NCBI RefSeq assembly: GCF_035474595.1 | Contig: NZ_DATIND010000098.1 | Coordinates: 1 to 64,000, forward strand | Source: Longimicrobium sp. | Lineage (GTDB): Bacteria; Gemmatimonadota; Gemmatimonadetes; Longimicrobiales; Longimicrobiaceae | Reading direction: 5' to 3' | Length of the DNA: 64,000 bases | Translations under genes and position numbers: made by a program | In this document: positions 612 through 62,401 of the stretch, in pieces | Layout of the letters: each line of letters begins with the position of its first letter | How positions within the stretch are numbered: the stretch's first letter is position 1 | The notes under the pieces: generated by a model | Told to the model about the DNA's origin: nothing | The model's input: the letters and a program-made list of their open reading frames with translations, nothing else | Database searches by the model: none

Positions 612-722
612 GTACCGGCGGTGCGAGAGTGCGAAGGTGTGAGAGTGCGAGAGTAGAGGTGCGTGCCGTCGTGGGGGCTGCGCCGCCCCCACGCACTTTC
701 GCACTCTCGCACTTTCGCACTG
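612..722. repeat. Octamer-repeat hairpin between parB and the coiled-coil gene (family A)
   Basis: Tandem degenerate octamers GTGCGARA run one way at about 621-655 and in inverted orientation at about 693-721, so they can pair as a long imperfect stem. Inside sits a second hairpin, GTGGGGGC-TGCGCC-GCCCCCAC (about 671-692). Read in the gene direction the first tract starts about 9 nt after the parB stop, and the second ends about 14 nt before the next ATG. It could act as a terminator or mRNA-stability element. The same octamer recurs at several other gene borders in this window. Confidence 0.8.
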
Positions 723-2585: not shown

Positions 2586-2735
2586 AGGAGACAGGGGAGA
2601 GGGGACAGGGAACAGGTACGGCAAGGCGTCCGGTGGAGGAAATCCACGCGGCCCGTGAGAAATGCGGCTGCCGGAGAGTCACCTCACCGGGAGCAGTTCC
2701 CTGTCCCCTGTTCCCTGTCCTCTGTTCCCTCGCTT
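2586..2735. repeat. Inverted GGGACAGGGAACAGG-type repeats straddling the mnmG stop
   Basis: GGGGACAGGGAACAGG-like units at about 2588-2617 face CTGTTCCCTGTCC-like units at about 2694-2735. A related run lies at about 46853-46882. The right arm is inside the mnmG reading frame, so the last residues of MnmG are repeat-encoded. The arms could pair as an mRNA 3' hairpin. Confidence 0.7.
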
Positions 2736-4601
2736 CCGCACCTCCATCACCAGGTTCTGCAGATCGCTGGGGCTCACGCCGGGAATGCGGCCGGCCTGCG
2801 CGAGCGTGGCGGGGCGGACGCGGTCCAGCTTCTGGCGCGCCTCGAAGCTGAGCGACGCGAGGTCGGGGTAGGGGAGATCGCCGGGAAGCGCGAAGTCGGC
2901 CTGCCGCCGGAGCGTGTCCGCACGGTCGCGCTCACGCGAGAGGTAGCCCTCGTACTTCAGCTCCATCTCCGCGCTCACCAGCGCCTCGGCCGCCGCAAGC
3001 TCGTCCTCCCCCTCCACCGGCGCGCCGCCGACCGCTTCGGCCAGCGCGGCGGCGGTGATGCCCGGACGCTTCAGGATCGCGGCGAGGCGCGTCGGCTCGC
3101 GGAGAGGCTGCGAGTTGGCGGACGCGAGGAGATCGGCCACCTGCCCGGGCGCAGCGTTGGTGCCGCGCAGCCACGCATCCATCCGCGCGGCAAGCTCGAG
3201 GCGGCGATCCAGGACGGCGCGCTGTTCGTCGGTCAGCAGCCCACGCTCGGCGGCGATGGGGGCGAGGCGGTGCAGGGCATTGTCCTGCCGCAGCACCAGC
3301 CGGAACTCCGCGCGCGAGGTGAAGAGGCGATACGGCTCGTCGGTCCCCTTCGTCACCAGGTCGTCCACCAGCACGCCGATGAACGCCTGGTCGCGCTCCA
3401 GGATCAGCGGCTCGCGGCCCAGCGCGTGGAACGCGGCGTTCGCGCCGGCGAGGACGCCCTGGCCCGCGGCCTCCTCGTACCCCGTGGTGCCGTTCACCTG
3501 GCCGGCGAAGAAGAGGCCGTCCAGCGCCTTGCTCTCCAGCGTCGGGCGGAGCTGGTGCGGGGGGTAGTAGTCGTACTCGATCGCATACCCGACCTTGGTC
3601 ATCCGCGCGTTCTCCAGCCCGGGGATGGACCGGAGCATCCGCACCTGCACCTCGGCGGGAAGGGAGGTGGAGAGGCCGTTCACGTACAGCTCCGTCGTCT
3701 CCAGCCCTTCCGGCTCCAGGAAGACCTGGTGGCGCGGCGCGTCGGGGAACTTCACGATCTTGTCCTCGATGGACGGGCAGTAGCGCGGGCCCCGGCCGGA
3801 GATCTCGCCGCCGTAGAGCGCGGACTCGTTCAGGTGGCCGGTGACCAGGTCGCGCAGCGGCTCGCCGGTCCAGGTGATCCAGCACGGCCGCTGCGGGAGG
3901 AGCGGCGCGCGCTCCCAGACCGAGAGGCGATACTCCTCCATCTCCCCCGGCTGCAGCTCCGTCTTCGCGTAGTCCACCGAGCGCCCGTCGATGCGCGGCG
4001 GCGTTCCCGTCTTGAAGCGCGCGACCTCCAGCCCCAGCGCCTCCAGCTGCTCGGCGAGGCGGACGGACGGCGGATCGCCCGCGCGCCCGGCGGGGACGGC
4101 GGGCGCGTGGCCGACGTGGATGCGGCCGCGCAGGAAGGTGCCGGTGGTGACGACGACGGCACGCGCGCGGAACTCGAACCCGCTCTCCGTCCGCACGCCC
4201 GCGACGCGAGCGCCTTCGATGATCAGCGAGCCGACCATCCCCTGGAAGAACTCCAGCCCCTCGTGCCGCTCCAGCAGCGCGCGCGCGGCGCGTGGATAGA
4301 GGCCGCGATCGCACTGCGCGCGCGGCGCCCAGACGGCGGGGCCCTTGGACCGGTTCAGCATGCGGAACTGGATGCGCGCGCGGTCGGTGGCCATCCCCAT
4401 CACGCCGCCCAGCGCATCCACCTCGCGCACGACGGTGCCCTTGGCCACGCCCCCGATGGCGGGGTTGCAGCTCATCTGGCCGATGGCCTCGAGGTTGGCG
4501 GTGACCAGCAGCGTGCGCGCGCCGGCCCGCGCCGCCGCGGCCGCCGCCTCCACGCCGGCGTGCCCGCCGCCAACTACGATCACCTCGTACGCGCTCGTCA
4601 T
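2679..4601 (-). CDS. mnmG: tRNA uridine-5-carboxymethylaminomethyl modification enzyme MnmG (GidA)
   Basis: 640 residues. FAD-binding GGGHAGVEAA lies at about 11-20, followed by the family signatures CNPAIGG, FKTGTPPR, YCPSIEDKIVKF and YEEAAGQG, and a C-terminal helical domain ending in PSDLQNLVMEVRKR. With MnmE (7365-8741) it installs the cmnm5 group at U34 of certain tRNAs using FAD, NADH and methylenetetrahydrofolate. I preferred ATG 4601 (AGGAG 4 nt upstream) to the in-frame ATG at 4616. The last ~15 residues (GNRGQGTGDRELLPVR) derive from a dispersed repeat and are probably not functional. The gene is flanked by both parS sites. Confidence 0.97.
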   Translation of the reverse strand: MTSAYEVIVVGGGHAGVEAAAAAARAGARTLLVTANLEAIGQMSCNPAIGGVAKGTVVREVDALGGVMGMATDRARIQFRMLNRSKGPAVWAPRAQCDRGLYPRAARALLERHEGLEFFQGMVGSLIIEGARVAGVRTESGFEFRARAVVVTTGTFLRGRIHVGHAPAVPAGRAGDPPSVRLAEQLEALGLEVARFKTGTPPRIDGRSVDYAKTELQPGEMEEYRLSVWERAPLLPQRPCWITWTGEPLRDLVTGHLNESALYGGEISGRGPRYCPSIEDKIVKFPDAPRHQVFLEPEGLETTELYVNGLSTSLPAEVQVRMLRSIPGLENARMTKVGYAIEYDYYPPHQLRPTLESKALDGLFFAGQVNGTTGYEEAAGQGVLAGANAAFHALGREPLILERDQAFIGVLVDDLVTKGTDEPYRLFTSRAEFRLVLRQDNALHRLAPIAAERGLLTDEQRAVLDRRLELAARMDAWLRGTNAAPGQVADLLASANSQPLREPTRLAAILKRPGITAAALAEAVGGAPVEGEDELAAAEALVSAEMELKYEGYLSRERDRADTLRRQADFALPGDLPYPDLASLSFEARQKLDRVRPATLAQAGRIPGVSPSDLQNLVMEVRKRGNRGQGTGDRELLPVR

Positions 4602-4690: not shown

Positions 4691-4706
4691 TGTTCCACGT
4701 GGAACA
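4691..4706. promoter_or_regulatory. parS site 2
   Basis: A second perfect copy of TGTTCCACGTGGAACA, 2.1 kb from the first, in the divergent gap between mnmG and the Gly-rich gene. An AT-rich patch (TATATATAAC, about 4642-4651) next to it may hold promoter elements. Confidence 0.93.
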
Positions 4707-4727
4707 TTCCCGCTCTTCGCTCCACCT

Positions 4728-4810
4728 CCGCACTCCCGCACTCCCGCACTCCCGCACTCCCGCACTCCCGCACTCCCGCACTCCCGCACTCCCGCACTCC
4801 CGCACTCCGT
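4728..4810. repeat. Perfect tandem octamer array, nine CACTCCCG units (family A)
   Basis: The 8-bp unit CACTCCCG is repeated nine times without error, with a tenth partial copy, starting 22 bp after parS site 2 and ending 74 bp before the next ATG. Perfect identity suggests recent slippage expansion, so copy number may vary between strains. It has no spacers and is not a CRISPR. Confidence 0.92.
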
Positions 4811-4883: not shown

Positions 4884-5639
4884 ATGCAAGACAGTAATTT
4901 CGGCGCCGGGGGCACCGGCGGCGGAACTGGAGAGAGCGGCCGCGGCTCGGGCCTGGGTGACGGATCGCCCAGCCTGGGCGCCACGGGCGGAAGCACCGGC
5001 GGCCTGAGCGGATCTACCGGTTCCACAGGCGGACTCGGCTCCCCCAGCGGCTCCACGGGCGGCAGCAGCCTGGGCGGGACCACCAGAAGCGGCGGCAGCC
5101 TGGGCGGGTCCAGCAGCGGGTTGGGCGGAACGAGCGGCCTCGGCAGCACCAGCGGCACCGGGCTGGGCGGCGGCACCACGGGGAGCACGGGTGGGCTGGG
5201 CGCCACCGGAAGCACCGGCGGGCTGGGCGGGAGCACCGCGGGCTCGGCCAACCGGCCGGAGTTCGGCGGGTCGACCGGCACGGCCACGGGCACCGCGAGC
5301 CGCTTGGGCGGAACGAGCGGCGGCGGGCTGGCCGACACGCTGCAGGAGCTGCAGGGGCGCGCCGACCAGCTGATGGACGAGGCGGCCGACCAGCTGGAGG
5401 AAGTGGCCGGGCGCATCGACGACCTGGCCGAGAAGGTGCCGAACAGGGGGCTGGGCGCTCGCGCCGGCGGAATGGCCTCGGGCGCGGCCGACACGCTGGA
5501 GAGCGTCGCGCGCTTCCTGCGCGACAACGACGTGAACACGCTGCAGCGCGAGCTGGGCCACATCGTGACCGAGCACCCGATCCCGGCCATCCTGGCCGCG
5601 GTGGGAGCCGGCTACGTGGTCGGCAAGGTCCTGCGCTAA
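4884..5639 (+). CDS. Gly/Ser/Thr-rich protein with C-terminal membrane-association region
   Basis: 251 residues with a strong ribosome binding site (GGGAGG). Residues 1-150 are a low-complexity stretch of repeated STGG/LGGS/TGSTG units with no predicted fold. From about 150 an amphipathic helical region (LADTLQELQGRADQLMDEAA) follows, and the C-terminus (AILAAVGAGYVVGKVLR) is a short hydrophobic glycine-containing helix like those of DUF883/ElaB/YqjD membrane proteins. It is the first of three genes (this one, a holin-family protein, another Gly-rich helical protein) with 13-nt and overlapping junctions, clearly one operon. A role in envelope or stress physiology is inference from the YqjD-like context; direct function is unknown. 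Confidence 0.85.
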   Translation: MQDSNFGAGGTGGGTGESGRGSGLGDGSPSLGATGGSTGGLSGSTGSTGGLGSPSGSTGGSSLGGTTRSGGSLGGSSSGLGGTSGLGSTSGTGLGGGTTGSTGGLGATGSTGGLGGSTAGSANRPEFGGSTGTATGTASRLGGTSGGGLADTLQELQGRADQLMDEAADQLEEVAGRIDDLAEKVPNRGLGARAGGMASGAADTLESVARFLRDNDVNTLQRELGHIVTEHPIPAILAAVGAGYVVGKVLR

Positions 5640-22668: not shown

Positions 22669-22820
22669 GGATCTCACGCGGAGACGCGGAGTCGCGGAGA
22701 ACTCATCTCCATCTCCCGCTTCTTCTCTACTCCGCGACTCTCCACGCGAGGCGGGGCGCCGCGGAGACGCGGGGGTGGTGAACACCGGACCTCCGCGACT
22801 CCGCGTCTCCGCGTGAGATC
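22669..22820. repeat. Inverted repeat with perfect 30-bp arms (family D) inside the two-component operon
   Basis: The arms at about 22670-22699 and 22791-22820 are exact reverse complements, made of GATCTCACGCGGAGACGCGG and its extension. Further CGCGGAGA-like units lie between. It sits between the kinase and regulator genes and would form a very stable RNA stem. Confidence 0.9.
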
Positions 22821-26514: not shown

Positions 26515-26595
26515 GATCTCACGCGGAGACGCGGAGACGCAGAGGAACTGAACGCGAGGTGAGTTCTCTGCGTCTCCGCGTCTCCGCGTGAGATC
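26515..26595. repeat. Inverted CGCGGAGA-type repeat (family D)
   Basis: GATCTCACGCGGAGACGCGG continues to AGACGCAGAG and faces CTCTGCGTCTCCGCGTCTCC through to GTGAGATC. The arms are about 31 bp and nearly perfect. It lies in the divergent gap between the M3 peptidase and sigma-factor genes, unlike typical terminators. Confidence 0.85.
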
Positions 26596-31794: not shown

Positions 31795-31943
31795 GGGGGG
31801 AACTCCGGGTGCCACGGGGGCCTTCGGGGGTGAGCTGCGACTGCGATTATCGCCTGCGGGCCGAGCGGCGCGTCCACTCCGCGCCCGGCCGGCTGCTGCA
31901 AGATCACGTCGCAGAGGCGCGGCGGCAAGGGTTCCGTTGCGGG

Positions 31944-32249
31944 GAGTGCGAAAGTACGGAAGTACGAGAGTACGAAACAGCTTGCGTGCACTCGGCGGCG
32001 ACGGCTGTTCTCGTGCGGGGGCTGGCCGGGCGAATGAATTCGCGGCAACAACTGCACAAAGTCCGCCTTCGCGGACTCGCGGGGAGGCATTCGCGCGCGG
32101 AGGCGGGCACCGGGCCAATCTGCTCGTCACCCCCGATCCATTTCACACGATCGAGCGCCCCTCCGAGGATGTGGAAGGGCGCTCGGTCAACTTTGGTGCG
32201 AGCCGTGGCCGTATCGTACTCCCGTACTTTTCGTACTTTCGTACTCCTC
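31944..32249. repeat. Octamer tracts bracketing a two-hairpin element (families A and B)
   Basis: GTACGAGA-type octamers (31944-31976) and inverted copies (32216-32249) flank a family B element at 32030-32077: stem GCGAAT-GA-ATTCGC, linker GGCAACAACTGCACAA, hairpin AGTCCGC-CTTC-GCGGACT. The right tract begins at the M23 gene stop codon. Apart from this, the 31795-32248 gap shows no gene. Confidence 0.8.
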
Positions 32250-33823: not shown

Positions 33824-33855
33824 CCGCACTCTCGCACCTTCGCACTCTCGCACCC
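33824..33855. repeat. Octamer tract upstream of the aldehyde dehydrogenase (family A)
   Basis: Four units of the form CGCACTCT/CGCACCTT, ending 8 nt before the ATG. It occupies the place where a ribosome binding site would be expected. Confidence 0.75.
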
Positions 33856-33863
33856 TGCAGACG

Positions 33864-35264
33864 ATGCCGATCACCACCATCAACCCCGCCACGGGCGAGG
33901 AACAGCCGACGAAGCTGGAGAAGCTCACGCCGGAGCAGGTCGAGCGGAAGCTGGCGCTGGCCGGCGAGGCGTTCCGCGCGCACCGCCGCACCTCCATCGC
34001 CGATCGTACCGCGAAGATGGCCGCGGCCGGCGAGATCCTGGCGGGCGAGAAGGAGAAGTTCGCCCGCATCATGACGATGGAGATGGGGAAGACGCTGAAG
34101 TCGGCGATCGCCGAGGCGGAGAAGTGCGCGTGGGCGTGCCGCTACTATGCCGAGAACGGCGCGCGCTTTCTGGCCGACGAGGAGGTGGAGACGAAGGCGA
34201 AGCGCAGCTACGTCCGCCATCTCCCCATCGGTCCGGTGCTGGCGGTGATGCCGTGGAACTTCCCGTTCTGGCAGGTCTTCCGCTTCGCCGCGCCCGCGCT
34301 GGTGGCGGGGAACGTGGGGCTGCTGAAGCACGCCTCCAACGTCCCCCGCTGCGCGCTGGCCATCGAGGACATCTTCCGTCGCGCGGGCTTTCCCGAGGGC
34401 GTGTTCCAGACGCTGCTGATCGGCTCGGACGCGGTCGCGGGCGTGCTCGACGACCCGCGCGTGAGGGCGGCCACGCTCACCGGGAGCACGCCCGCGGGGA
34501 GCAGCGTGGCCGAGCGCGCCGGGAAGAATCTCAAGAAGACGGTGCTGGAGCTGGGCGGGAGCGATCCCTTCATCGTCCTTCCCAGCGCCGACCTGGACTT
34601 GGCGGCGGAGACGGCGGCGAAGGCGCGGTGCATCAACAACGGCCAGAGCTGCATCGCCGCCAAGCGCTTCATCGTGCACGCCGACGTCTACGACGCGTTC
34701 ACCGAGCGCTTCGTCCGCGCGATGCGGGCGCAGAAGGTGGGCGATCCCATGGCGGACGATACCGACGTCGGGCCGCTGGCGATGGAGAGCACGCGCGACG
34801 ACGTGGAGCGGCAGGTGCGCGAGTCGGCCGCCAGGGGCGCGAAGGTGCTCACCGGCGGCGAGCGGATCGAGGGGCCGGGATGGTTCTATCCCCCCACCAT
34901 CCTGGCCGAGATCCCCGAGGACGCGCCGGCGTACCGCGAGGAGGTGTTCGGCCCCGTCGCCCTCCTCTTCCGCGCGAAGGACGCCGACGAGGCCATCTCC
35001 CTGGCCAACGACAGCGACTTCGGCCTGGGCAGCAGCGTGTGGACGCGCGACGAGGCCGAGGCGCGGCGCTTCGTGGACGAGCTGGAGGCGGGGATGACGT
35101 TCGTGAACGCGATGGTCGCCTCCGACCCGCGCCTCCCCTTCGGCGGCGTGAAGGAGAGCGGCTACGGGCGCGAGCTGGGCAGCATCGGGATGCGCGAGTT
35201 CATGAACATCAAGAGCGTGTGGATGGAGGACGAGGGCCCGGACGAGCACCCGGCGGCGGAGTAG
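33864..35264 (+). CDS. NAD(P)-dependent succinate-semialdehyde dehydrogenase-like aldehyde dehydrogenase
   Basis: 466 residues. Catalytic Glu229 (VLELGGSDPF) and Cys263 (NNGQSCIAAKRF) are present, as are the cofactor loop MPWNFPFWQ and TLTGSTPAG. The shape (ENGARFLADEEVETKAKRS and VWMEDEG at the end) matches the succinate-semialdehyde dehydrogenase branch. It oxidises a semialdehyde to the acid, feeding the TCA cycle. There is no Shine-Dalgarno in the octamer-filled leader. No GABA transaminase gene is nearby, so the exact substrate is uncertain. Confidence 0.93.
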   Translation: MPITTINPATGEEQPTKLEKLTPEQVERKLALAGEAFRAHRRTSIADRTAKMAAAGEILAGEKEKFARIMTMEMGKTLKSAIAEAEKCAWACRYYAENGARFLADEEVETKAKRSYVRHLPIGPVLAVMPWNFPFWQVFRFAAPALVAGNVGLLKHASNVPRCALAIEDIFRRAGFPEGVFQTLLIGSDAVAGVLDDPRVRAATLTGSTPAGSSVAERAGKNLKKTVLELGGSDPFIVLPSADLDLAAETAAKARCINNGQSCIAAKRFIVHADVYDAFTERFVRAMRAQKVGDPMADDTDVGPLAMESTRDDVERQVRESAARGAKVLTGGERIEGPGWFYPPTILAEIPEDAPAYREEVFGPVALLFRAKDADEAISLANDSDFGLGSSVWTRDEAEARRFVDELEAGMTFVNAMVASDPRLPFGGVKESGYGRELGSIGMREFMNIKSVWMEDEGPDEHPAAE

Positions 35265-37426: not shown

Positions 37427-37557
37427 GAAGTACGGGGAGTACGAAAGTACGGGAGTATGGAACTGAAGTGCGGCAGTGCGTGAGTGCGGGAGTGCGCTGG
37501 CTACGCGGACGGTGAATGAATTCACCGGCTACAACTGCACAAAGTCCCTTCGGGACT
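37427..37557. repeat. Octamer tract followed by a two-hairpin element (families A and B)
   Basis: GTACGGGA/GTGCGGGA octamers (37427-37499) start at the histidine-kinase stop codon. A family B element follows at 37511-37557: stem GGTGAAT-GA-ATTCACC, linker GGCTACAACTGCACAA, hairpin AGTCCC-TTC-GGGACT. The order matches that at 31944-32077. Confidence 0.85.
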
Positions 37558-44124: not shown

Positions 44125-44176
44125 CGTTCCCCCGGGTTCACGGGTACGAAGATGCCTTCATCCCCCCCTGCAGTTC

Positions 44177-44215
44177 CGTACTTCCGTACTCACGCACTCA
44201 CGCACTCACGCACTT
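44177..44215. repeat. Octamer tract at the 3' end of the PIG-L gene (family A)
   Basis: Units CGTACTTC, CGTACTCA, CGCACTCA (twice) and CGCACTTC. On the minus strand the tract begins directly after the PIG-L stop codon as AAGTGCGTGAGTGCGTGA. Confidence 0.85.
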
Positions 44216-46783
44216 CTACCGTCCCGGCTTCGCCCCCAGCGCCAGCAAGTTCGCGAACAGCCGCCACGCGCCGGGAACGCCCTCGGGAAGCTGGCGGAAG
44301 AAGGCGAGGCCGGTGTAGACGTACGTCCCCTGCCCGTACTTCGCGATCAGCAGCGAGCCGCGCATGGGCGCCTCGCCCGGGTCGTTCATCTCCAGCAGCG
44401 GCGTGTACGCGGGGTCCCAGGTGTGCGCGAAGTAGAGGCCGCGCTCCTGTACCCATCCCTCCCAGTCCGCCGCGCCGATGCGGTTGGGCGTGGTGAAGAC
44501 GGGGCTCGCCGGCTGCAGCACCCGCACCGGCGCGGCCTCGTCGGTCACGCGGTCGTGCGGGTTGGCCAGGGTGATGGGAAAGGGGGTGAAGTGCCCCTGC
44601 ACCAGCTCGTACTTGTTGTACTGCACGATCAGCGTGCCGCCGCGGCGCACGTACTCCAGCAGCCGCGCGTTGTTGGCCGCCAGATCTGCCCGCACCTCGT
44701 ACGCGCGGATGCCGGTGACGATCACGTCGTACTTCGACAGGTCCGCCCCCGCGAGCGAGTCCGCCGTCAGCACGCTGGGGGTGATGCCGAGCTGGCCCAG
44801 GATCCCCGGCCCCTCCTCGCCCGCGCCCTCCACGTACGCCACCTTCAGCCCCGCCGGCACCCGCACGTCGAACGCGCGCACCGTCGACGCCGCGTCGTGG
44901 TACAGCGGCCGCGCGCGGATGTGGGGATAGTCCACCACCTGCAGCCCGCGCGTGTAGCGCTCGCCCCCGTCCACCACGAACGCGGCGGAGACGGGGATGG
45001 ACGATGCCCGCACCCCCGCCGGCGGCGTCACCCGCACCTCCACGTCGTGCGGCTCGCCCGCGGCGAGGGTCAGGCGCGTGCCGTCCGCGTCCGCGCGCCA
45101 CCCGGCGGGGACGGTGATGCGCAGCGTGCCGCTCACCGGCCGTGGCGCCTCGCCCATCAGCCGCACGCGGTAGCGCAGGGGCCGCGCGGCGCCGCCCGTC
45201 GGCAGGATGCTGGTCTGCGGCTCCAGCGCCACGGAGACGGCGGGGACGACCAGGACCGGGCGCCGGAGCTCGCCCTGGCGCAGGTCCACGGCGCGAAAGG
45301 TGGCCTCGCGCTCCAGCGGCACCCCCGCGCCGGCGACCGTCACCATCGCGGACGCGCGGACCGGTGCCGGCTCGAACGGGCGGCCGTCCACCGACCAGTC
45401 CGCGGGCCAGCGGTAGAAGTCGCCGTCGCGCGGCTGGCGCAGGAAGTAGGGGATGGTGGGCGATGCGTCCGTCGGCACGCGCACGCGGAAGCGGCGGCGG
45501 ACCAGCGCACCCGGCGCCACCTCGCCGCCGGGAAGCGGGTCCTGCGCCGTGGCCGTCCACCCCGCGGGGAGGCGCGGCTCCAGCGCGGAGACGGTGACCG
45601 CGCGGGCGCCGCCGTTCCAGAGCGTCACCTCCAGCGCGAAGTCCTGCCCGGGAACGATCCGCTCGTCGTCCGCCACGGCGTCCAGCTCCAGCCCCGCGGC
45701 CATCGCCAGCGCCTGCTCGGCCTGCCGCCCTTCGTTGTCGGCGGTGAAGGGAAGCCCGGACGCGCCGCCCTGCCGCGGCTCCAGCGCGCGTACCGCGGCG
45801 GCCAGCGGCTCCACCAGCGCGTCGGGCCGCAGCACGTTCGCGGCGGTGCGCGCCTCGGCCACCGCGCGGTCGTAGCGCGCCAGCGACGCGTCGCGCTCGG
45901 CCAGCGTGGTGTCGATCCCCTCCCAGATCGAGCGCTCGCGCCCGGCCGGCCCGGCGGGAACGATGCGGCGCAGGTAGCCGAAGCGCGGCCCCGCCAGCTC
46001 CGGGCGCCCCATGTCCTGCGAGCGGTGGCGCGAGCGGCTGGCCATCGCCAGCTGGAAGGGCGACCGGCCGATCAGCGGGTCCATTCCCCCCAGCGCGATC
46101 GCGGCCGTCGCGCCGGTGCTGTCTCCCCGCTGCGACTGGTAGTACTTCGCCGCGCGGAAGGGCCTGAGCCCGGCGCGGATCTGCTCGGGAAAGCGCGCCG
46201 AATCCCCCGCCACCTCGAACGCCTCCCGGGCGATGATGGCGGAGACCTGGTGCTGGCCGTGGCCGTCGCGCGGGGTGCCGGTGAACACGGCGATCACCAC
46301 GTCGGGGCGCCAGAGGCGGATGACGCCCACCACGTCGCGCAGCACCTCCTCGCGCGGCCAGTGGCGGAAGGCCTCGTCGGCGTTCTTGCTGAACCCGAAG
46401 TCGTACGCGCGGGTGAAGAACTGCGTGGCGCCGTCCACGCGGCGCGCGGCCAGCAGCTCCTCGGTGCGCAGCAGCCCCAGCGCCTCGTGCAGCTCCGGCC
46501 CGATGCCGTTCTGCCCGCCCTCGCCGCGGGTGAGGGAGAGGTAGGCCACGTCGGCGCCCTGCTCCAGCGCGAGGCCGGCCAGCAGCTGCGTGTCCTCGTC
46601 GTCGGGGTGCGCGCCGATCATCAGCACGCGCTTGGTGGTGCCCAGACGCCGCAGCGCCAGCCCCAGCGCGGCCGCGCCGCGGTACTCGCCGATCCCGTCC
46701 TGCGCGCGGGCCCGGGCGGGCGGCGCGGCGGGGACCAGCGCCAGCGCCAGCATCCCCGTGATTGCGACTCGTTTCATGAACAT
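44216..46783 (-). CDS. Exported PIG-L-family deacetylase, multidomain
   Basis: 855 residues. Signal peptide (about 1-28), then a PIG-L/LmbE domain (about 50-250) with the zinc motif AHPDDE (58-63), TRGEGGQNG and the His in GQHQVSA. The middle (about 330-600) contains an Ig-like/NEW3-type beta domain (VEVRVTPPAGVRASSIPVSA). The C-terminal 220 residues look like a class I amidotransferase-like/ThuA-type module (YDVIVTGIRAYEVRADLAAN). Family members deacetylate N-acetylglucosaminyl compounds; here the enzyme is periplasmic or outer-membrane bound. ATG 46777 is an alternative start. Confidence 0.9.
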   Translation of the reverse strand: MFMKRVAITGMLALALVPAAPPARARAQDGIGEYRGAAALGLALRRLGTTKRVLMIGAHPDDEDTQLLAGLALEQGADVAYLSLTRGEGGQNGIGPELHEALGLLRTEELLAARRVDGATQFFTRAYDFGFSKNADEAFRHWPREEVLRDVVGVIRLWRPDVVIAVFTGTPRDGHGQHQVSAIIAREAFEVAGDSARFPEQIRAGLRPFRAAKYYQSQRGDSTGATAAIALGGMDPLIGRSPFQLAMASRSRHRSQDMGRPELAGPRFGYLRRIVPAGPAGRERSIWEGIDTTLAERDASLARYDRAVAEARTAANVLRPDALVEPLAAAVRALEPRQGGASGLPFTADNEGRQAEQALAMAAGLELDAVADDERIVPGQDFALEVTLWNGGARAVTVSALEPRLPAGWTATAQDPLPGGEVAPGALVRRRFRVRVPTDASPTIPYFLRQPRDGDFYRWPADWSVDGRPFEPAPVRASAMVTVAGAGVPLEREATFRAVDLRQGELRRPVLVVPAVSVALEPQTSILPTGGAARPLRYRVRLMGEAPRPVSGTLRITVPAGWRADADGTRLTLAAGEPHDVEVRVTPPAGVRASSIPVSAAFVVDGGERYTRGLQVVDYPHIRARPLYHDAASTVRAFDVRVPAGLKVAYVEGAGEEGPGILGQLGITPSVLTADSLAGADLSKYDVIVTGIRAYEVRADLAANNARLLEYVRRGGTLIVQYNKYELVQGHFTPFPITLANPHDRVTDEAAPVRVLQPASPVFTTPNRIGAADWEGWVQERGLYFAHTWDPAYTPLLEMNDPGEAPMRGSLLIAKYGQGTYVYTGLAFFRQLPEGVPGAWRLFANLLALGAKPGR

Positions 46784-46852: not shown

Positions 46853-46885
46853 AACAGGGGACAGGTTACAGGGGACAGGGACGGC
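46853..46885 (+). repeat. GGGACAGG-type repeat
   Basis: GAACAGGGGACAGGTTACAGGGGACAGGG, like the repeats near mnmG at 2586-2735. It lies in the 220-bp gap between the PIG-L gene start and the HTH gene. Confidence 0.6.
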
Positions 46886-47590: not shown

Positions 47591-47848
47591 ATGAACCCTT
47601 ACACGGAGATGCACGTGCCGCGCGAAGTGACCGATCACGAGGGAATCCGATGGACCTGCGTAGAGGCGTATGCCGGCCTTTCCGGCGACGCGGGCGACGC
47701 CGCGAAGGTGGAGGGCGAGCGCTATCGCGTGGTGTGCACCCCCAGCGGCGCGTCGAAATCCGTCGAGCTGCACCTCCCCGGCGGGTGGGAGGACTCGCTC
47801 TCGGACGAGGAGCTGCTCCGGGAGATCGCCAAAGGAAGAACCGATTGA
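47591..47848 (+). CDS. Small hypothetical protein
   Basis: 85 residues, mostly beta: YTEMHVPREVTDHEGIRWTC, YRVVCTPSGASKSVELHLPG, then a short acidic helix (DEELLREIAKGRTD). ATG 47591 is chosen because the upstream extension is Arg/Gly-rich. No family recognised. Its stop codon is followed within 4 nt by octamer repeats. Confidence 0.7.
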   Translation: MNPYTEMHVPREVTDHEGIRWTCVEAYAGLSGDAGDAAKVEGERYRVVCTPSGASKSVELHLPGGWEDSLSDEELLREIAKGRTD

Positions 47849-47851
47849 ACC

Positions 47852-47965
47852 GAAGTGCGGAAGTGCGGAAGTGCGGAAGTGCGGAAGTGCGGGAGTGCGC
47901 TTGTCTCCTGCCCGGTAACAGATCCTGCGAGCCGGACCAACGCACTCACGCACTCACGCACTTCC
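47852..47965. repeat. Facing octamer tracts (family A)
   Basis: Five GAAGTGCG units plus GGAGTGCG (47852-47899) face CGCACTCACGCACTCACGCA (47941-47965). The tracts could form a hairpin between two plus-strand genes. Confidence 0.85.
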
Positions 47966-55330: not shown

Positions 55331-55400
55331 GATCTCACGCGGAGACGCGGAGGATTCGTCACGGCACGGAGTTCTCCGCGTCTCCGCATCTCCGCGTGAG
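55331..55400. repeat. Inverted CGCGGAGA-type repeat (family D)
   Basis: GATCTCACGCGGAGACGCGG faces CTCCGCGTCTCCGCATCTCC and then GCGTGAG. The arms are imperfect. The 55199-55662 gap contains this, the terminator at 55222 and nothing else recognised. Confidence 0.8.
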
Positions 55401-61200: not shown

Positions 61201-61234
61201 GCCTCGGCGCGCGCAGGTGTGATCCCGATGCGAT

Positions 61235-61275
61235 CACGCACTCACGCACTCACGCACTTTCGCACTTTCGCACTC
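61235..61275. repeat. Octamer tract at the stop of the multicopper oxidase gene (family A)
   Basis: CGCACTCA (twice) and CGCACTTT (twice) with a final CGCACTCA. On the minus strand the first octamer overlaps the TGA stop codon itself. Confidence 0.85.
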
Positions 61276-62401
61276 ACTTCACCACCAGCGCCGTCACCAT
61301 CCCGAACATCCCCATCGGCCCCTCGGCGTGCGGGAGGATGTGGCAGTGGAGCGCCCAGGTGCCGGGGTTGTTGCAGTCGATCATCACGTCCCAGCGCTCG
61401 CCGGGGGCGATGTTCAGCGTGTCGCACTTCCAGGGCTGCGGCTGCGCGTAGCCGTCCTTGTGCGTCACCGTCATCGGCATCCCGTGCAGGTGCATGGGGT
61501 GGATCATCATCCCCTCGTTCATGAAGCGGATGCGCACCTTCTGCCCCAGGCTGGCCACGATCGGCTCGGTGGCCGGGAAGCCCTTGCCGTTCAGCGTGTA
61601 GCCGTGCGGGCCGTCGTTCAGGATCATCACGTGGTCCACGTCGGCCCTGCGCGTCTCGCCGCCCCTGGGCTCCACGATGAAGGCGCCCAGCAGCCCCATC
61701 GGCACCTGCCTGGACGAGTTGAGGTGCGAGTGGTACATGTGCGAGCCCGGGTTGGGCACGGTGAACTCGTACACGAACTTCCCGCCCGGCTTCACCGGCG
61801 GCTGGGTGATGAAGGGCACGCCGTCCATGGAGATGGGGACCGCCAGGCCGTGGAAGTGGATGGCGCTGCTCTCGTCCAGGTTGTTGGTGAAGTTCACGCG
61901 CACCCGGTCGCCCTCCTTCACGCGGATCTGCGGGCCCGGCACCTGGCCGTTGTACGCCCACGCCTCCACCGTCTGCCCCGGCGCCACCTCCCACATGGTC
62001 TTCGCGGCGGTGATGTCGAACACCTTCACGCCGTTCTCCATGCGCGGCGCGAAGGGCTGGTTCCCCTTCCCCTTCGTCGCCGCGGGGAAGCTCTTGATCC
62101 CCGCCTCGTGGTGGCGGTCCATCTCGTCGGCCGCGGCGGCGGCGGTGGCCGGGCCCTTGGGGTTGGCCGCCATGGTGCCGCCGCTGTGGTCGCTGTCGGG
62201 GTGCACGGCGCCCGGCGGGGTGCCGGCGGGCTCGGTGCCGGCGCTCTTCGGCGCGCCGCGGCCGGCCTCGCCGGTGTTGCACGCGGCCAGCGCGCCGGCC
62301 ACCGCCGGCACCGCCACCGCCACGGCGGCGCCGCGCAGGAAGTCGCGGCGCGACGGGCGGGCGGGCGCCCGGGTCTCGGTCTTGTCGAGAATGTCCGACA
62401 T
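61274..62401 (-). CDS. Tat-exported two-domain multicopper oxidase
   Basis: 375 residues. A twin-arginine signal PSRRDFLRG (16-24) ends near a lipobox LAAC (Cys41), so it may be a Tat-exported lipoprotein. Copper ligands occur in HFHGLAVPI, HMYHSHLN, HPMHLHGMPM and the Cys/His-rich ALHCHILPHAEGPMGM, with type 1 and trinuclear sites. At this length it is a small-laccase or two-domain copper oxidase type, oxidising phenols, metal ions or similar. It ends at an octamer tract and a strong terminator. Confidence 0.94.
   Translation of the reverse strand: MSDILDKTETRAPARPSRRDFLRGAAVAVAVPAVAGALAACNTGEAGRGAPKSAGTEPAGTPPGAVHPDSDHSGGTMAANPKGPATAAAAADEMDRHHEAGIKSFPAATKGKGNQPFAPRMENGVKVFDITAAKTMWEVAPGQTVEAWAYNGQVPGPQIRVKEGDRVRVNFTNNLDESSAIHFHGLAVPISMDGVPFITQPPVKPGGKFVYEFTVPNPGSHMYHSHLNSSRQVPMGLLGAFIVEPRGGETRRADVDHVMILNDGPHGYTLNGKGFPATEPIVASLGQKVRIRFMNEGMMIHPMHLHGMPMTVTHKDGYAQPQPWKCDTLNIAPGERWDVMIDCNNPGTWALHCHILPHAEGPMGMFGMVTALVVK

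Follow-up and report, generated by a model that had tools for sequence, protein, structure and literature searches.

Xanthomonas and Nostoc carry GGGNATC heptamers in tandem, mostly between genes (Rehm et al. 2015, PMC4692102). Their G-rich strand is the sense strand up to 50 bp past stop codons and the antisense strand up to 50 bp upstream of start codons, and some of the repeats overlap the stop. Inverted pairs in convergent gaps were counted 70 and 75 times, and related species show the same gene neighbours together with extensive variation in length and sequence. The function was left open and a G-quadruplex interpretation was given. TAACTGA heptamers of the Beggiatoaceae are likewise oriented and lie mainly just upstream of start codons (MacGregor 2015, PMC4679880). 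In E. coli, ribosomes stall at REPs located no more than 15 nt from a stop, and REPs can also be obstacles to exoribonucleases (PMC12306157).

We analyzed a window of 64,000 nucleotides (contig C98:1-64000) from the genome of a member of the Longimicrobiaceae, a soil-type bacterium (G000; 6.57 Mb, 163 contigs, 71% GC). ParB relatives placed it with the Gemmatimonadota of this family. A preliminary description of this window had reported tandem GTRCGNRA octamers that follow a strand rule relative to gene ends, and knew of no named element with this rule. The rule itself is already known, since Rehm et al. give it for the heptamers of Xanthomonas and Nostoc. What is new is that octamers lacking G-tracts follow it, that a single genome holds many families and that the anchoring to stops is strict.

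Position tables were compiled for 1.49 Mb of the genome in 48 pieces, the window included; this sample represents 23% of the genome, contains an excess of contig starts and is 79% coding according to the called genes. Genes were called with a purpose-written, codon-periodic caller, which recovered the genes named in the preliminary description; its stops are exact and its starts approximate. Repeat families were found with Tandem Repeats Finder on the same sample, from which both the motif definitions and the distance tables were drawn, and three relatives (G008, G001 and G009) served as replication. For the random-placement null, each array was re-placed within its own gap in 1000 placements.

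The window contains 29 tandem dimers of GTRCGNRA, compared with an expectation of 0.01. Trimers occur 477 times in forward and 464 times in reverse orientation in the whole genome, and the reversed-pattern control yielded 16 and 28. Each of the octamer tracts reported earlier, including the six sense tracts 3' of stops, was found at its place (Table 1), and no curated covariance model of Rfam matches the window. The tracts are not equally common inside genes: despite the coding share of the sample, only 5 of 145 lie within called genes, four of them no more than 21 nt from the gene end, so that a single one is truly interior. Reading outward from the nearest gene was observed for 120 of 137 intergenic tracts (binomial p=3e-20), with 81 outward and 10 inward where the nearest edge is a stop and 39 outward and 7 inward where it is a start. 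Within 15 bp of a stop, all 71 tracts point outward. Orientation is therefore tied to gene edges and not independent of stops and starts. The view that the tracts are more orderly than satellite DNA and constitute a gene-border element is supported by their position, polarity and stop anchoring as well as by their recurrence in relatives.

Table 1. Tandem repeat arrays in the window (distances in bp past the stop).
Feature	Position	Strand	Context
GTRCGNRA array, 3-4 units	690..721	-	sense, 9 bp past parB stop (731)
facing partner, imperfect array	621..652	+	ahead of the start (586/607) of the next gene, which is on the minus strand
AGGGGAC heptamer array, a relative of the rule with period 7	2586..2616	+	~5 bp outside the start of the ParA gene 1664-2581
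inverted partner GTTCCCTGTCCCCT of the 2586 array	2696..2730	-	in the last ~50 bp of the GidA/MnmG gene 2679-4601
10-unit GTGCGGGA array	4727..4808	-	lone; antisense in a divergent gap, 75 bp before the start at 4884
GAG-core octamer facing pair ACGCGGAG ... CTCCGCGT	22676..22814	.	palindrome class, without stop anchoring
GAG-core octamer facing pair	26521..26589	.	
GTRCGNRA array	31942..31977	+	faces 32214-32247
GTACGNRA array	32214..32247	-	sense, 1 bp past stop (32249) of M23 peptidase gene
degenerate octamer array	33825..33856	-	upstream of aldehyde dehydrogenase start at 33864
two adjoining arrays, GTACGNRA then GTGCGNRA	37435..37497	+	sense, 9 bp past PAS histidine kinase stop (37425)
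array	44174..44216	-	sense, abuts PIG-L gene stop (44216; -1)
heptamer array ACAGGGG	46854..46880	+	gap outside the start of gene 44216-46783
6-unit GTGCGGAA array	47852..47900	+	sense, 3 bp past stop at 47848
facing partner array, GTGCGTGA units	47940..47965	-	upstream of gene with start 48063/48117
GAG-core octamer facing pair	55337..55397	.	
array	61234..61277	-	sense, overlaps multicopper oxidase stop (61274; -4)

The two arms downstream of parB fold as a single long hairpin with the inner stem GTGGGGGC/GCCCCCAC (predicted fold -71.3 kcal/mol). Beside parA, parB and gidA we also observed two perfect TGTTCCACGTGGAACA palindromes, which are parS-like (2565-2580 and 4691-4706); none is expected by chance.

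Taking the octamers and related heptamers together, 159 of 307 arrays are no more than 15 bp away from a stop; the random placements gave 36 on average and never more than 52. No anchoring was found at starts (23 arrays within 15 bp, 27 expected by random placement). Accordingly, the part of the rule that concerns starts is one of direction, without anchoring. Control arrays with a period of 10-60 and a stop as the nearest edge have a median distance of 80 bp from it. Only 10 of 154 arrays contain the whole stop codon, and anchoring is thus not created by stop codons within the repeats. The same count, together with the many units that lack a stop codon, led us to reject the idea of backup stops. 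In convergent gaps with a facing GTRCGNRA pair (78 to 278 bp long), both arms lie no more than 11 bp from their own stops in six of seven cases, irrespective of gap length, and 46 of 56 arrays of the AGT and GGG classes in convergent gaps are found within 15 bp of the stop that they point away from. Array-free gaps display the same outward composition skew upstream of starts, and weakly after stops, so the arrays may exaggerate a general trend.

The strand rule holds for GTRCGNRA, but it is not specific to this unit, and other families of 7-9 bp follow it to some degree. In the 1.49 Mb sample, tandem repeats of period 7 and 8 are almost all intergenic (130 of 142 and 222 of 253, respectively). 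Besides GTRCGNRA they comprise the families ACGCGGAG, GGGGACA, RAGTSCY and GCYNAGT, to which a nonamer, AACGGAGGG, is added. The units of the AGTnC class (GTRCGNRA, RAGTSCY and GCYNAGT) are 7 or 8 bp long; RAGTnC is common to these AGT-core families, which mix within single arrays. Each AGT-core family has one orientation and a median onset 1.5-6 bp past the stop, and the GGGGACA class behaves likewise. The GAG-core families (ACGCGGAG and the nonamers) are mostly compact palindromes with an inner spacing of 15-30 nt and without stop anchoring. Their octamer palindromes, TCTCACGCGGAGACGCGGAG...CTCCGCGTGAGA, are a separate class that lies free in the gap, often with loops of about 20 nt, and has nonamer relatives in other species. 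Most variants of GTRCGNRA, RAGTSCY and GCYNAGT have no run of three G, and only GGGGACA contains G-tracts. Most families have an antisense strand rich in C and poor in G; AAGTSCY is an exception. We assign the tracts in the window to a group of short, polarised tandem repeats at the borders of genes, in which the stop-associated arrays start about 0-15 nt past the stop on the mRNA strand.

According to the preliminary description, the two tracts between same-strand genes face each other and can pair. This applies to about one third of the array-bearing gaps, in which a plus-strand array is followed by a minus-strand array (93 gaps; same class in both arms in 79, 29 expected); the remaining arrays are lone. 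In the main sample, facing pairs occupy 82 gaps and a back-to-back pair only one. Lone arrays form the majority and point outward in 165 and inward in 40 cases. They are not readily regarded as decayed pairs, because no excess of partner octamers was found at one mismatch, though lone arms keep the inner end motif GTGCGYNGG (20 of 92 lone and 19 of 58 paired arms). The GTAC and GTGC subtypes are matched between facing arms. No such match is seen at position 6 (G or T) or at position 7, nor is there an asymmetry of G-U over A-C in the transcribed orientation. We therefore see no selection on a precise RNA helix and discard fine compensatory pairing between the arms. The most plausible origin of the arms is a palindromic element of which they are the halves, or else inverted duplication, followed by independent change through slippage. 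With most arrays lone and the arms independent, hairpins formed gap by gap do not suffice to explain the polarity rule.

Hairpins of paired octamers (e.g. L067:18128-18269) often carry the apex GTGCGYTGG-WTTCG...CCARCGCAC, which suggests common descent for part of the pairs. Regions of 130 nt at the 3' side of genes are more stable than their composition predicts where they contain arrays (z -3.4 to -3.8, compared with -1.7 to -2.6 in regions lacking them), and shuffled units fold at least as well as most of the actual unit sequences. A GNRA-tetraloop hairpin of the type [GURC][GNRA] was considered and rejected: the sense strand of the GTGC variants folds no better than shuffled sequence, only the rarer GTAC variants do better, and GCAA and GTAA are nearly absent.

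Subtracting the array from its gap leaves a length close to that of array-free gaps (tandem 160 vs 139 bp, convergent 182 vs 168 bp, divergent 315 vs 301 bp; none significant), which indicates that arrays are added DNA. They are present in about 22% of tandem, 34% of convergent and 16% of divergent gaps, close to additive per gene end. Counted per stop, AGT and GGG arrays follow 14-17% of stops in tandem gaps with a residual length of at least 20 bp, 3.7% below 20 bp and 13% of convergent stops. Tightly coupled gene pairs are avoided, and junctions of 20-100 bp bear arrays as often as long ones. A flat profile per stop of this kind suits an element of intercistronic gaps and 3' ends better than it suits a terminator. 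In tandem gaps some arrays end 4-20 nt before the next start, and several of these starts seem to lack a Shine-Dalgarno sequence, similar to the TAACTGA case in the Beggiatoaceae.

The strand rule was also observed in the related species G008, G001 and G009, with unit repertoires that differ. In the gap 3' of parB, facing octamer arrays are present in G000, G001, G002 and G005; G003 has a degenerate pair, and G009 retains remnants on the antisense side. ParB of the relatives with arrays or remnants is 70-82% identical to that of G000, and loops and unit variants differ throughout. The array is absent in G008 (ParB 90% identical) and in the other genera inspected, several of which have a short gap. 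A comparison of orthologous stops between G000 and G008 resulted in 5 with an array in both genomes, 10 with an array in one only and 52 with none (odds ratio 10.8, p=0.004). At one ortholog stop both arms have changed, from AAGTGCC/GGCACT to AAGTCCT/AGGACT, and at another the family is a different one altogether. No shared arrays at orthologous stops were seen in the small sets available for G001 (31 pairs) and G009 (24 pairs). Within the phylum, 4 of 249 genomes have any match to the octamer; outside the Longimicrobiaceae there are only two hits, both in a single genome, and array presence within the family is patchy.

G000 contains six Y1_Tnp genes, and such genes are found in most array-bearing relatives. 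Two RAYT-type loci were inspected, C46:148725-149063 (L110) and C46:79048-79389 (L106). Both are flanked by inverted palindromic repeats of 55-60 bp (CCGGCGACTGAAGTCGCAGCAACAACTACGGG..., AAAATGCCACTGAAGTGGCGGCTACAACGGCACGCAGTCCGCC...), apparently their REPs, and no array lies within 900 bp of either gene; we therefore do not identify the arrays with RAYT-associated REPs. The palindromic repeats are also scattered between genes elsewhere and sit in the loops of several pairs of facing arrays.

We tentatively propose a role at the 3' border of genes similar to that of REP/BIME elements, on the grounds of where the arrays lie and how they point, of their avoidance of coupled junctions, of the folded 3' regions and of their partial conservation. 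The array in the mRNA, with its facing partner if there is one, would form a structured 3' border like the REP/BIME elements of E. coli. Such a border would block 3'-to-5' decay, slow the terminating ribosome, or both, and would not act as a transcription terminator. Slippage would let arrays grow and change, and partner arms could originate from inverted duplication or from palindromic copies. In the course of this the sequence would drift, with position and polarity kept. This proposal accounts neither for the fixed polarity nor for the placement at stops. Weighing against it are the predominance of lone arrays without an excess of decayed partners, the unmatched fine variants of the arms, the poor folding of most units, the lack of shared arrays in the small ortholog sets of G001 and G009 and the missing parB array in G008.

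Almost as likely is a repeat that expands by itself and is tolerated. Here, a self-expanding or palindromic repeat without host function would pile up where it does least harm, being excluded from coding regions, coupled junctions and promoters, and the polarity would stem from a palindromic founder and from selection against GTG or Shine-Dalgarno-like G-rich repeats upstream of starts. The unchanged residual gap lengths are expected of tolerated added DNA as well. The arms diverge independently, and lone and paired arms share the inner GTGCGYNGG, as would the two halves of a single element; unit repertoires specific to each species and the patchy presence within the Longimicrobiaceae point in the same direction. 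Placement 0-15 bp from the stop is not accounted for in this way (random placement gives 36 of 307), nor is the separate hugging of both ends in most convergent gaps with octamer pairs, or the persistence of an array in one gap across relatives with 70-82% ParB identity. The preliminary description had thought of 3'-end stability, which may apply, or of termination, which gains no support here. Bidirectional terminators or insulators could arise from long hairpins of facing arms, or the C-rich strand produced as RNA polymerase runs into a gene could serve as a Rho-loading (rut-like) site. The strong excess of facing over back-to-back pairs, the C-rich and G-poor antisense strand of most families, a mild T enrichment 4-7 nt past the outer end of the 3' arm (0.33-0.41, background 0.17) and the lack of arrays in all 35 divergent gaps below 200 bp would agree with this. 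Convergent stops, however, are not enriched (13% vs 16% per stop in tandem gaps of at least 100 bp, p=0.25), short junctions of 20-100 bp are not avoided and the AAGTSCY family breaks the C-rich rule. Stringent terminators (a GC-rich hairpin followed by a T-run) were detected at 6 of 142 array genes and at 44 of 545 genes without arrays. Canonical intrinsic terminators thus do not coincide with the arrays, a consistent U-tract is missing and arm variants are not matched in detail, and we regard termination or insulation as improbable. Much less probable still is a G-quadruplex element as proposed for the GGGNATC heptamers. GGGGACA arrays with their repeated G-tracts show the same polarity and stop anchoring, but GTRCGNRA, RAGTSCY and GCYNAGT obey the same rule, mostly without runs of three G, and a quadruplex is no general reason. 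Mobilisation of the arrays as REP elements by the RAYT (Y1) transposases of the genome is equally hard to credit: the genes are present here and in most array-bearing relatives, but the two inspected ones have other palindromes at their flanks, and RAYT-type repeats are instead nested inside the loops of array pairs.

Stop-anchored, gene-outward short tandem repeats could even be a general feature of bacterial gene borders that is independent of the unit sequence, although we are inclined to doubt such a broad statement. In bacteria from the Longimicrobiaceae to Xanthomonas and Nostoc, a shared process, or selection coupled to the end of translation or transcription, would then repeatedly give rise to unrelated families of 7, 8 and 9 bp at stops with one polarity.

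Facing arms resemble intrinsic (bidirectional) terminators in that they can form intergenic hairpins; in contrast to these, the arrays have no consistent U-tract, are not enriched between convergent genes and often lack a partner arm. With REP/BIME elements they share the intergenic location 3' of genes, often no more than 15 nt from the stop (159/307), as well as inverted pairing and 3' hairpins. They differ in being arrays of 7-8-bp units instead of a discrete short palindrome, in being unlinked to the inspected RAYTs and in often having a single arm. Like the TAACTGA repeats (PMC4679880) and the cyanobacterial heptameric STRR, they are intergenic tandem repeats with a preferred orientation to their neighbours and variation in copy number, but they are anchored at stops and not at starts; TAACTGA lies mainly just upstream of the latter.

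Closest are the GGGNATC repeats. Both kinds are mostly non-coding (5/145 in genes for the octamer), lie in sense orientation past stops and in antisense orientation before starts, and form inverted facing pairs (82 gaps here). Unlike GGGNATC, the arrays described here have units of 7, 8 and 9 bp, belong to several unrelated families per genome, mostly lack G-tracts, occur in Gemmatimonadota and are anchored to stops with a median within about 5 bp. The G-quadruplex argument made for GGGNATC, based on G-tracts and a preference for four repeat units, cannot be transferred to the octamer. The coexistence of several unrelated families with the same polarity, most of them without G-tracts, removes the quadruplex as a general reason and provides natural replicates within one genome for testing what matters. 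The strict stop anchoring defines a place for the mechanism, whether ribosome release, protection of the mRNA 3' end or the birth of arrays. As their units are neither GGGNATC nor defined by G-tracts, the arrays are a variant of the kind described by Rehm et al. and not the same repeat family.
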